Position numbers and translations under genes: made by a program. The notes below the pieces were generated by a model, which saw nothing but the letters and a program-made list of their open reading frames with translations, had not been told where the DNA came from and did no database searches. From Candidatus Nomurabacteria bacterium (GTDB taxonomy: Bacteria; Patescibacteriota; Saccharimonadia; Saccharimonadales; Saccharimonadaceae): a stretch of DNA of 57,514 nucleotides. This document shows positions 16,592-57,514 of this stretch, one piece after another. Location of the stretch: assembly GCA_031266275.1 (NCBI GenBank), contig JAISBI010000022.1, positions 1 through 57,514 of the forward strand, given 5' to 3'. Numbering within the stretch: position 1 is the stretch's first letter; every line of letters begins with the position of its first letter.

Positions 16592-16597
16592 TATAAT
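16592..16597 (+). promoter_or_regulatory. Promoter of FISUMP gene 1 leader
   Basis: An extended -10 TGATATAAT (TATAAT at 16592-16597), 25 nt after the Clp stop. Transcription would start around 16603-16605, i.e. on the first arm of the structured leader. Confidence 0.6.
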
Positions 16598-16601
16598 GAA
16601 A

Positions 16602-16747
16602 TCGCAAAACACATGATTTTCGTGTTCGTTGAATAAATAATGAATGCGGCTATGTACGCAACTTTGTTTGTTCAACGAAGATTGTGTGTTTTGCGACATT
16701 AGTACATAGTCGCATTTTTATTTGCGACGGAATTTAAGGAGCTGAAA
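16602..16747 (+). ncRNA. Structured leader with interleaved stems (paralog 1)
   Basis: Two long inverted repeats interleave. Stem 1: TCGCAAAACACA (16602-16613) with TGTGTTTTGCGA (16685-16696), continued by TTCGTTGAA (16625-16633) with TTCAACGAA (16671-16679). Stem 2: the 15-nt arm AATGCGGCTATGTAC (16643-16657), inside the loop of stem 1, pairs with GTACATAGTCGCATT (16702-16716) outside it, with one G-U. This is an H-type pseudoknot topology. A T-rich run follows arm 2b, then AAGGAG and the ATG at 16748. The leader of the paralog at 44474 has the same order of parts with unrelated sequence. Confidence 0.7.
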
Positions 16748-18115
16748 ATGAGTAAAAAAGCAATAACAACCATCACGAACTTTATAAAATCCCACTTCAG
16801 ACCATTAATCCTCTCAGGCCTAGTCCTCGTTTTTATCTCCTTATTCTTCATAAACTATTCCTTCACTCATGCCGATGCTTCTATAACCCTGACCATAAAC
16901 GGCGGCCCCACCAACAACGGTAAAGTAATCACTATAGACAAAAATGACTGTACTACCTTTACGCTAGATACTACAACAACTACAGATAATACAACTGGCT
17001 ATAACCTCAAAGCCTACACTAAAACCAAAAGTACTGGTATAACCATAAAAAAACAAGACAACACAGACCTACCCACTAATCCAAACCACCCAACTGAAAT
17101 AGTAACCACCACCAAAGCAGAAATCAAAGACAAGCAAACCACTACCTACCAAGCCTGTGCAGAAGAAAGCATTAGTGATGGGGACAAAACAGCCGAAGTA
17201 GCCTACGTGATAGCTGAAAACCTGCCATCCATGCAAGTTTTCACTTTATCGGATTGCCAAAATCTACCAATCTATAATAAGACTAATCCAGACCCAGCCA
17301 GTACGATTACCCTCATAGACAGTAGAAACAGCCAAGAGTATGACATTAGACGATTACAAGATGGCAAGTGCTGGATGATTGATAATTTGAAACTAGAGCT
17401 AAAAAACGGTATGACGTTAACGACTCAAGATACTAATGTGGAAAACGATACGACCATTTACTTTACACAGGATGGCACCCAGAATGGTACGAAATTAACC
17501 GGCATGACGGAGAATTTTACGACGTCGGGCTATTTAACGCGGGACGGAAAACAGCCAAGTTCTGATTACAACTGGGACGCATGGCGACAAGTCAATCCGA
17601 GCAGTCGAACCTATTGCGCATATCCAAGCGGCGCTGCCTATACGACTACTAACTCCAAAACTGGTTGTGGTTACCTTTATAATTTTTATACTGCTACGGC
17701 TAGTTTTGGCACTCAAGACCTTGACGTTCAGGGGGAACAAGTTGAAGACTCAATTTGTCCGGCCGGTTGGCATTTGTCGAGAAGCGGTGAAATAGGCGCC
17801 TTAACTAATGAAACGGATATATTAAATGCCAAAATGGCAGGTTTTGCCGACAACCAAGATACTACTTACCAAAGTAACTCGACCACTTATTACGCTAATT
17901 GGATTTCATCAGGGTCTTGGCGAGGAGTTCTTGCTGGCGATTATCGTTCTTCGTTTATGAGCACGGGCAGTATAGGAGAATTTTGGTCGTCTACTATAGG
18001 TTATGGCTCGACGTCAGCTTATCACATTTATCTCGTCTCGGCGTCTTCTTATGCAAATCCTAATAATACCAGTAGCCGCTATTATGCATTTGGTGTGCGG
18101 TGTTTAGCGAATTGA
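16748..18115 (+). CDS. FISUMP-domain surface protein, paralog 1
   Basis: A 455-residue exported protein. An N-terminal membrane helix/signal anchor (about residues 18-37) is followed by a Thr-rich beta region (about 40-170), then the FISUMP (Fibrobacter succinogenes major paralogous) domain. Hallmarks of that domain: DGKCWMIDNLKLEL, CGYLYNFYTA, SICPAGWHLS, FWSST and the terminal GVRCLAN. Paired Cys suggest disulfides outside the cell. Its N-terminal two thirds closely match the paralog at 43083-44474 while the last 150 residues differ. Shine-Dalgarno AAGGAG precedes the ATG. The function is probably adhesion or host contact, which is inference; CPR cells carry many such paralogs. Confidence 0.88.
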   Translation: MSKKAITTITNFIKSHFRPLILSGLVLVFISLFFINYSFTHADASITLTINGGPTNNGKVITIDKNDCTTFTLDTTTTTDNTTGYNLKAYTKTKSTGITIKKQDNTDLPTNPNHPTEIVTTTKAEIKDKQTTTYQACAEESISDGDKTAEVAYVIAENLPSMQVFTLSDCQNLPIYNKTNPDPASTITLIDSRNSQEYDIRRLQDGKCWMIDNLKLELKNGMTLTTQDTNVENDTTIYFTQDGTQNGTKLTGMTENFTTSGYLTRDGKQPSSDYNWDAWRQVNPSSRTYCAYPSGAAYTTTNSKTGCGYLYNFYTATASFGTQDLDVQGEQVEDSICPAGWHLSRSGEIGALTNETDILNAKMAGFADNQDTTYQSNSTTYYANWISSGSWRGVLAGDYRSSFMSTGSIGEFWSSTIGYGSTSAYHIYLVSASSYANPNNTSSRYYAFGVRCLAN

Positions 18116-42625: not shown

Positions 42626-43094
42626 TCGACTAGCTCGAAGAAGAATATCTTTTGCGTGGGGCGTCATAATCGTCGCGTTCGCCACATTGCTATGGAGCAT
42701 GCTGTGGTCAAATGGAAGTTTATCATGGGATATCTGGTACCCAGTCAATAATTTTGTAGCGCCTATCTTGGCAATTGCCTTTATAGTATCTGTCGTTGGT
42801 TTGATATTAGGCAATCGCTCGGCAGCCAAAGAGTCTCAGCAAAAAAATCTCCAAGTGGTGTATAAGTGGACGCTAATATCAGTTATCACAGCCTTAATAT
42901 CAGCGGCGGTCGGGTTTATTGTCCTTATCACCATCATGAGCCAGTGTCTGCTTGGCGGTTGCTCGACCGGCATCGTCTTCTCTGGGTTCGTTTCCGTAAT
43001 TGCGTTTTCGTTGAGTATTCTATTGCTCCTTGCCATGAGTATCGCGACTATATACTTGCATCGTAAGCAAATAGCGAAGAAATCAATTAACTAA
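42618..43094 (+). CDS. Hypothetical four-helix membrane protein
   Basis: 158 residues with four hydrophobic helices (about 8-28, 38-60, 80-105 and 118-145) and basic ends. Not recognised. Its ATG overlaps the end of the MacB-like permease by 8 nt, so it may be an accessory subunit of that exporter. Its 3' end overlaps the convergent FISUMP paralog 2 by 12 nt. Confidence 0.75.
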   Translation: MSSRLARRRISFAWGVIIVAFATLLWSMLWSNGSLSWDIWYPVNNFVAPILAIAFIVSVVGLILGNRSAAKESQQKNLQVVYKWTLISVITALISAAVGFIVLITIMSQCLLGGCSTGIVFSGFVSVIAFSLSILLLLAMSIATIYLHRKQIAKKSIN

Positions 43095-44474
43095 GCAGCG
43101 AACCGCCATCCCTATATAACGCTGGTGTATTTTGTAATAGTCGTTGCCGGGATATACGTAACTACCGTAATGCGTATAGAGCAGATGAGCATAGATGTCC
43201 GAGTACATGCTGGAAGTCCACATATAAATTTTTGTGCCCTGTAAGTTAAAAGTATCAGATTCACTGCTACTATACATGCCGCTTAAAGAACCGCGAAATG
43301 AACCAGCCGGTTCCCAATTTTTGTAATATTTACTGTTATATGAGTAAGCTTGAGATGGGGCGTCATCGCCAGCCATATATCCATTCAATACCGCGAAGTC
43401 ATTCTGCGCAGCATCACTATTATATCCTCTCGGTAAACTCCAGCCAGTCGGACAAATTGAGCTTTCGGCTACACCACTAGTTTTGGATTGCGGGGCTGTG
43501 CCAGCAGTGGCAGTATAAACATTATAGAGATACCCACATTTAGATTTAGAATTTACATTATATGTAATGTCAGCTATGCCGCTATAACCCGAATTATTGA
43601 GGCATAGCTCAACATTACTGGGGTCGGCTTGCCGCCAAGCATCTTGATTGGGGCTGGTAGTCGAGTCGGTACCGCTGCGCGTTAAATGTCCTGATGTCGT
43701 AAAATTTTTGGTCAGACCCGTAAGAGCCGTCCCATTCTTAGTGCCATCTTGAGTAAAATAAACAGTGGTATTAGTCGCTACGTTAGTATCTTCTGGCGTC
43801 AAAGTCATGTCATTCTTTAGCTCCAACTTCAAATTATCTATCATCCAACACTTTCCATCTTGTAATCGTCTAACATCATACCATTGGTCGTTTCTGGTAT
43901 CTATCATAGTTATAGTGCTAGCTGGGTCTGGGTTAGTTTTATTATAAATTGGTAAACTTTGACAATCTGATGAAGTAAAAGTTTGCATGGGTATGGGTTG
44001 GTTTTCGTTGATGATGTAGGCTACTTCAGCTGTTTTACCTCCATCACTAATGTTTTCTTCTGCACAGGCTTGATAGGTAGTTGTTTGCTTGTCTCTGGTT
44101 GAGACGATATTTGTCTTAATTATTTCTACTGGATTGTTTGGATTTGTGGATAATTCGGTGTTGTCTTGTTTCTTTATCGTTATACTGGTACTGCTAGCTT
44201 TAGTATAGGCTTTTAGACTATAGCCTAATTCATTGTCTGTTGTGGTAGTAGTATCTAAAGTAAAGGTAGTGCAATCATCTTTATCTATGGTTATTGTTTT
44301 GCCGTTGTTGGTGGGGCCGCCGTTGATTGTGAGGATAATAGAGTCTTCAGCATGGGTTAGAGAGTAGTTTATGAAGAATAGAGAGAGAAAGACAAGAGTA
44401 ATTCCAGACAGGATTAGTGGTCTAGGATGGGATTTGACAAAGTTTGTGATAGTTGATATTGCTTTTTTAGTCAT
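43083..44474 (-). CDS. FISUMP-domain surface protein, paralog 2
   Basis: A 463-residue protein, a close paralog of 16748-18115 in opposite orientation. It has the same N-terminal anchor (about 18-38), the same INGGPTNNGKTITIDKDDCT region, and the FISUMP hallmarks DGKCWMIDNLKLEL, CGYLYNVYTA, SSICPTGWSLPRG and terminal AVRCLVN. Divergence is concentrated after about residue 300, where the exposed loops would be. The nucleotide sequence of the 5' part is also clearly similar. No strong Shine-Dalgarno is seen, only an AAAG-type stretch about 9 nt upstream. A structured leader precedes it. Confidence 0.88.
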   Translation of the reverse strand: MTKKAISTITNFVKSHPRPLILSGITLVFLSLFFINYSLTHAEDSIILTINGGPTNNGKTITIDKDDCTTFTLDTTTTTDNELGYSLKAYTKASSTSITIKKQDNTELSTNPNNPVEIIKTNIVSTRDKQTTTYQACAEENISDGGKTAEVAYIINENQPIPMQTFTSSDCQSLPIYNKTNPDPASTITMIDTRNDQWYDVRRLQDGKCWMIDNLKLELKNDMTLTPEDTNVATNTTVYFTQDGTKNGTALTGLTKNFTTSGHLTRSGTDSTTSPNQDAWRQADPSNVELCLNNSGYSGIADITYNVNSKSKCGYLYNVYTATAGTAPQSKTSGVAESSICPTGWSLPRGYNSDAAQNDFAVLNGYMAGDDAPSQAYSYNSKYYKNWEPAGSFRGSLSGMYSSSESDTFNLQGTKIYMWTSSMYSDIYAHLLYTHYGSYVYPGNDYYKIHQRYIGMAVRCLVN

Positions 44475-44650
44475 ATTGTCTACTTTCTTTACAAAGTTAT
44501 TATTCTGGTGTCAAAAAAGGACACCGCGAGGTGTTCTAATCCTTAATACAGTAGAGGCTCACTCTTGCTGTCGCGGTGCCCTTTAATAAATGAGCCACGC
44601 GACTAAGCACTGTTTAAAAAACACTACTGTATCTTATCAAAGATTAGAAC
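44475..44650 (-). ncRNA. Structured leader with interleaved stems (paralog 2)
   Basis: In transcript order: arm 1a (44650-44624), arm 2a (44584-44571), arm 1b (44554-44533), arm 2b (44529-44516). Stem 1 pairs GATTAGAAC (44642-44650) with GTTCTAATC (44533-44541) and CTACTGTAT (44624-44632) with ATACAGTAG (44546-44554). Stem 2 pairs TCGCGGTGCCCTTT (44571-44584) with AAAGGACACCGCGA (44516-44529), one G-U. GGCTCA/TGAGCC (44556-44561/44591-44596) makes a small hairpin presenting arm 2a. A T6 run follows arm 2b in the transcript. Same topology as 16602-16747. Confidence 0.7.
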
Positions 44651-44656
44651 AACTCC

Positions 44657-44685
44657 ATTGTAACAAACAAACGCCATTTTCGCAA
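44657..44685 (-). promoter_or_regulatory. Promoter of FISUMP gene 2 leader
   Basis: Minus-strand TTGCGA (44680-44685), a 17-nt spacer, and TACAAT (44657-44662). Transcription would begin near 44650, exactly at leader arm 1a, as in paralog 1. Confidence 0.6.
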
Positions 44686-57412: not shown

Positions 57413-57514
57413 ATGAAAACAACAATAAACAACGAAAATAATAACAAAGTAGTCCTCCCAACTCACTTTCTTCCTAACGAAATAAACCAAAACTCCTCTC
57501 TCTCTCTCTCTCTC
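57413..57514 (+). CDS. Partial gene with N-terminal Ser-Leu repeat
   Basis: Starts at ATG behind a weak AAAGGG and runs off the window after 34 codons: MKTTINNENNNKVVLPTHF, then a short Asn-rich stretch and an alternating Ser-Leu run encoded by a CT repeat. Family unknown. The CT repeat makes the frame unstable, so phase variation is possible; the window may simply end where assembly failed in the repeat. Confidence 0.5.
   Translation, partial: MKTTINNENNNKVVLPTHFLPNEINQNSSLSLSL
57496..57514 (+). repeat. CT dinucleotide repeat at the window end
   Basis: An uninterrupted CTCTCT run of 19 nt, reaching the last base of the window and lying inside the 5' part of a reading frame. Confidence 0.9.

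Follow-up and report, generated by a model that had tools for sequence, protein, structure and literature searches.

Two genes for exported proteins with FISUMP domains, in the 57,514-nucleotide window analysed here (the whole stretch of contig JAISBI010000022.1, assembly GCA_031266275.1, Candidatus Nomurabacteria bacterium), are each preceded by a leader in which four pairing arms interleave in the same order. This raises the question whether such a leader is a selected RNA structure, as had been proposed from the letters alone, and what such an RNA would do for the gene behind it. We focus on the leader found on the minus strand at 44651-44513, upstream of a gene (43083-44474, minus strand) that codes for an exported FISUMP (PF09603, by Pfam) protein of 463 aa, whose nearest named relative is in a Candidatus Saccharibacteria assembly.

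The minus-strand leader and a third pairing

Reading of the minus strand and listing of its helices bore out the anatomy given by the sequence-only reading, with the arms in the order 1a-2a-1b-2b. Stem 1 (P1) consists of two blocks: an outer one of 10 bp between TGTTCTAATC of arm 1a (44651-44642) and GATTAGAACA of arm 1b (44541-44532), both found by helix listing and by covariation, and an inner one of 9-10 bp between GATACAGTAG (44633-44624; helix listing and own-versus-swapped test) and CTACTGTATT (44554-44545; helix listing). Stem 2, of 14 bp with one G-U pair, joins arm 2a, AAAGGGCACCGCGA (44584-44571), to arm 2b, TCGCGGTGTCCTTT (44529-44516), the 5' and 3' strands of a pseudoknot that is again seen in both helix listing and covariation, and a T6 run read directly from the sequence is located at 44518-44513. 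The small extra hairpin said to present arm 2a is also there (P2, GGCTCA 44596-44591 : TGAGCC 44561-44556; both strands in the helix listing, the 5' strand also in the own-versus-swapped test) and holds 2a in its loop. In addition, a segment 4a (GTCGCG..., 44603-44597), noted in the MFE fold, could base-pair with positions 44575-44570, the 3' half of arm 2a. From the end of the promoter, TTGCGA-N17-TACAAT (44685-44657), it is 6 nt to the first G of arm 1a, and +1 is expected at or adjoining that arm.

The earlier reading overlooked a third pairing, in which arm 2b and the tail of arm 1b together make a standard intrinsic terminator. In the leader under study this is the local hairpin ACACC-TCGC-GGTGT (44534-44521; one found against 0.1 expected in shuffles), followed by CC and the T6 run; many relatives have GACACC-TTGC-GGTGTC-GTTTTT, and a terminator-type hairpin was found in most other copies. 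The 5' arm of the hairpin overlaps the end of arm 1b, and the 3' arm falls within arm 2b. Since arm 2b serves both pairings, pseudoknot and terminator are mutually exclusive. Among the copies, coupled variants of the 1b tail, 2b and 2a are found: GACGACC, GGTCGTC and GGGCGACTCGCG; GACAACC, GGTTGTC and GGGCAACTCGCG; GACGCC, GGCGTC and GGACGCCACA; AGCGAC, GTCGCT and GCGGCCATATC. The terminator's own covariation is weak (2/6 pairs in the fixed-length set described below), and the case for it therefore rests on its form, its presence in most copies and these coupled variants.

Where pseudoknot and terminator overlap, the pseudoknot contains one or two wobble pairs in 66/81 copies, and the terminator hairpin is free of them in 75/81. 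The isolated pseudoknot helix has a computed energy of about -20 to -24 kcal/mol as against -5 to -9 for the terminator hairpin, so that the terminator must win by speed or because 2a is hidden. A further candidate, an antiterminator formed by conserved pairing of GGTGTC with GACACC about the T run, was dropped, being absent in several copies.

A family of leaders in one genome

The other leader of the window, at 16602-16717 on the plus strand, has the same arm order in a different sequence. Behind a TATAAT −10 box (16592-16597, read in the sequence), arm 1a (16602-16623) pairs over 22 bp with arm 1b (16675-16696), and arm 2a, GAATGCGGCTATGTAC (16642-16657), pairs with arm 2b, GTACATAGTCGCATTT (16702-16717), all four arms being found by helix listing and topology scan. 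A terminator hairpin TGCGAC...GTCGCA, followed by TTTTTATTT (16692-16714; sequence read, energy computed), overlaps arms 1b and 2b, and the gene 3' of the leader (16748-18115, plus strand) encodes an exported FISUMP protein of 455 aa by Pfam.

To ask how often this arrangement occurs, we scanned both strands of all 42 contigs of the own genome (792,187 bases), irrespective of sequence, for a P1 of 9 bp or more interleaved with a 2a:2b helix of 10 bp or more, with a T run at the end. The scan returned 18 matches, 12 of which form one coherent family, with the other six unrelated. Chance pairings in random regions do not account for the pattern, as three dinucleotide-preserving shuffled genomes gave only 7, 3 and 1 matches, numbers close to that of the six unrelated real ones. 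The family comprises both window leaders, single members on contigs C12, C38, C31, C21, C24, C10, C34 and C27, and two in tandem on C28. Eleven of the 12 precede FISUMP or related exported-protein genes, and the C12 copy precedes a gene for a 205-aa protein in which a signal peptide was not apparent by inspection. The tandem pair (locus L068, C28 258-573, minus strand) has one promoter for each leader and stands before a single FISUMP-like gene start.

The proposal that the two window leaders are unrelated in sequence holds for that pair, but not for the family: the 2a/2b core of the leader under study, GGRCAYCGCG ... CTCGCGGTGTCCTTTTTT, is common to most of the paralogous leaders. Judged by sequence, it is the first leader, and not the one under study, that is the diverged copy of the two. 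The sequence-only reading is thus incomplete, having missed both this conserved core and a likely switch between the pseudoknot and the local terminator.

Covariation of the pairing arms

Since MAFFT alignments of all leaders misplace P1, covariation was counted on arms extracted at fixed length; this set holds 81 copies, of which 72 are distinct. The fixed length did not suit nine copies, several of which are informative length variants. In the 72 distinct copies, 98.5% of P1 cells are paired (shuffle mean 67%), with compensatory double changes at 9/9 pairs, and 98.5% of cells of the 2a:2b pseudoknot are paired (shuffle mean 87%), with double changes at 5/10 pairs; these counts are inflated by relatedness, and pairing falls to only 25-47% when the partners are slid by 1-2 columns. 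The outermost 2a:2b pair, for example, is C-G in 28, G-C in 28 and T-A in 9. RNAalifold, run on 12 relatives, chose 2a:2b unaided as the consensus helix. Together with the spread of the family across the order, these double changes strongly support the view that the leader is a selected RNA structure.

In the own-versus-swapped test the inner helices hold in 74/76 copies. The pairing of 4a with the 3' half of 2a exceeds swapped controls in 58/76 copies, which is weaker evidence than that for the other helices and is suggestive of an alternative fold that hides arm 2a.

Distribution, promoters and downstream genes

A covariance model built from five canonical leaders, with the leader under study left out, recovered that leader (42 bits, E=7e-5) and found relatives in 14 other genomes. 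A further model, built from 12 relatives' leaders including the C12 copy of the own genome, again without the leader under study, recovered it with 50 bits (E=3.6e-9) and placed the family in 89/393 genomes and 42/156 genera of the order; in one large genus, single genomes carry as many as seven copies or more. Outside the order, four genomes in a phylum-wide sample matched, one from the same class (103 bits) and three from elsewhere in the phylum (32-35 bits); pseudoknot and terminator are visible by eye in all four. A topology scan of the relatives' PF09603 loci, many of which stop short of the gene start, had given no convincing leader, and it was the covariance models that afterwards located leaders in relatives. 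No leader match was found in phage and plasmid records, and no viral contig matched the exact terminator pattern. Fifteen viral contigs that carry the 2a motif were rejected as chance matches (best 17.6 bits, with P1 and 2b missing). On contig C46 of one related genome (G032), two leaders about 0.5 kb apart (L155 and L163) have nearly identical inner parts and different P1 arms, as if only the P1 stem had been swapped.

In 69/76 copies, 6-7 nt separate the end of the −10 box from P1a, and the RNA is therefore expected to begin with P1. In annotated copies the start codon lies mostly 14-80 nt past the U run. As in an attenuator, a conserved leader structure is found between promoter and gene. 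A strong hydrophobic segment near the N-terminus is present in 63/79 downstream ORFs, as compared to 31% among 505 long ORFs taken from the own genome; by this simple hydropathy test, with one genome as background, about 80% of the downstream genes are predicted to encode membrane or secreted proteins. Pfam matches among the downstream genes were FISUMP, in three genera (the own genome, L211/L217/L229 and L257), TM2, DUF4352, OmpA and NHL. These genes share no common pathway, which would be unusual for a metabolite riboswitch and counts against an attenuator or riboswitch reading.

Leaders and repeat tracts in FISUMP paralogs

Using the N-terminus of the downstream protein as query, we found 22 paralogous loci in the own genome, one of which (L072) has too little upstream DNA to be read. 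The four-arm pattern is present in 10 of the 21 readable loci and absent from the other 11; the leader is therefore not universal in the FISUMP gene family. Eight of the 11 paralogs without a leader have, within their first codons, either a poly-G tract or a repeat of GA, and in the sample of 21 loci tract and leader are mutually exclusive (Fisher p = 0.001), with no G-run tract seen in the paralogs that carry the RNA leader.

The G runs, 9-13 bases long, are found in the first codons of six leaderless loci (L059, L061, L062, L067, L070 and L071; CTGGGGGGGGGG) and are likely to mediate phase variation by slippage. Long GA repeats of 18-40 bases occur at L063, at L064, on many other contigs and in the window itself (57496-57513). 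Many genes for membrane proteins have such a repeat at their start, preceded by AAC and encoding RERERE..., and other genes have one near the 3' end; these repeats probably make up a genome-wide set of simple-repeat switches. A palindromic repeat, GTCATTGCGAGCnnAGCGAAGCAATC, is also present in frame in the FISUMP N-termini of L058, L060, L061 and L065, near the gene start (NVIASKAKQS), and resembles palindromic elements inserted in coding genes of other bacteria.

A candidate attenuator and its alternatives

Conservation, covariation, promoter position, a terminator, the overlap of two pairings and the gene context are established for this leader, and we consider it probable that it belongs to a conserved family of cis-regulatory RNAs that work by co-transcriptional attenuation. 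Transcription would begin at arm 1a, P1 (1a:1b) would close the domain, and the inner hairpin would keep arm 2a in its loop. As arm 2b emerges it could pair with 2a, so that the strand immediately 3' of P1 makes a pseudoknot and read-through is permitted, or it could fold onto the 1b tail, giving the intrinsic terminator that ends in the U run and hence no expression. A putative signal, ligand or protein, would bias this choice, either by making the P1/P2/pseudoknot fold more stable or by concealing 2a, which the upstream segment 4a may also mask. That switching occurs, which state is ON and that a signal exists is what we infer; an alternative structure that forms an intrinsic terminator, as an attenuator demands, is found at the sequence level. 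A point against the attenuator model is the short terminator stem, of only 4 bp, in some copies from one genus.

The two states may also be the reverse of those just described, with 2a:2b as the stem of a long-loop terminator and P1 or the local hairpin as the antiterminator. The pseudoknot helix, the strongest in the leader, finishes beside the U run and in many copies pairs into it (AAAC:GTTT), and might thus itself terminate. However, it is the local hairpin with the U run that looks like a standard terminator and is scored as one, and P1 is no obvious antiterminator of 2a:2b because the two helices are topologically compatible. We regard this reversal of ON and OFF as unlikely. That the structure is no switch, and serves as a stabiliser of the 5' end of the mRNA or as a nuclease-resistant cap, is quite improbable: P1 closes exactly at +1 and the fold is very stable, as such a cap would have it, but a cap would need neither the U run, nor the terminator complement to 2b, nor the coupled changes in 2a, 2b and the 1b tail.

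The full promoter-to-terminator unit, and the tandem leaders of C28 with a promoter of their own each, might instead belong to an independent small RNA that stops at the terminator and acts in trans, with the gene transcribed from a promoter of its own. Against this, a gene start with a ribosome site lies shortly downstream in most copies, no conserved second promoter was seen, and since P1 sequences vary between copies there is no common target-pairing region; we hold a small RNA of this kind to be highly improbable. It is hardly credible that the repeats work at the DNA level, as a site of recombination or inversion, even though they are multi-copy inverted repeats beside variable surface genes, for G-U pairs occur often in both P1 and the pseudoknot, the arm sequences vary from copy to copy, and the orientation to promoter and gene is constant.

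Relation to known RNAs and implications

None of the 4227 models of Rfam 15 matched any leader at gathering or relaxed thresholds, and in the literature on riboswitches, pseudoknots and RNA motifs of Saccharibacteria and Patescibacteria, of which our coverage is incomplete, we found no description of it. As both are without a match, we take the leaders to be a new RNA family, best read as a new class of pseudoknot/terminator attenuator and possibly as a riboswitch.

The family would work like the fluoride (crcB, RF01734) and ZTP (pfl, RF01750) riboswitches, where a pseudoknot strand likewise overlaps an intrinsic terminator and the two are mutually exclusive. Hertz et al. (PMC11077080) found that the fluoride riboswitch switches only if its pseudoknot has a wobble pair where it overlaps the terminator, and the wobble pairs in the overlapping part of the leader's pseudoknot may, by analogy, be a parallel to it. 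The leader family differs from both in its long P1 around inner hairpins, its pseudoknot from a loop to the outside on the 3' side and its gene context, and with no match to RF01734 or RF01750 it is not a member of either. T-box leaders (RF00230) are also 5' leaders that set a terminator against an antiterminator, and the leader 2a core, ...CACCGCG, recalls the T-box ACCGCG. Membership was rejected, with no RF00230 match and neither a conserved UGGN bulge nor a Stem I seen, and the downstream genes are not related to tRNAs or amino acids.

LOOT RNA (RF03000) is a structured RNA of the same order that differs from the leader family in structure and sequence. It was found in 14/61 relatives, and an RF03000 search found none in the own genome. 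One LOOT RNA (L158:2744-2861, 74 bits) lies about 1.1 kb downstream of a leader; that leader has no RF03000 match, and the neighbouring element that does match is separate. In riboswitches of the preQ1-III type, the pairing partner of a hairpin loop lies 3' of the domain. The leader family has a similar pseudoknot between a hairpin loop and the outside, and differs in its larger enclosing P1, its terminator platform and the lack of an Rfam match.

Almost nothing is known of gene regulation in host-dependent Patescibacteria; a 2024 review describes the mechanisms of their on-host growth and cell-cycle control as virtually unknown, and riboswitches as wanted tools (PMC11665869). Tentatively, the leaders could form a new class of riboswitches in Saccharibacteria and related Patescibacteria. 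They would sense a signal of life on a host cell and co-regulate surface and membrane proteins, several of them per genome in certain lineages, and within the same paralog family they would be an RNA-based alternative to phase variation by repeat tracts; this wider reading is possible rather than probable. A conserved, multi-copy leader before surface-protein genes is a concrete candidate regulator with a defined test, and if its signal is found, the leader could supply a native inducible element.
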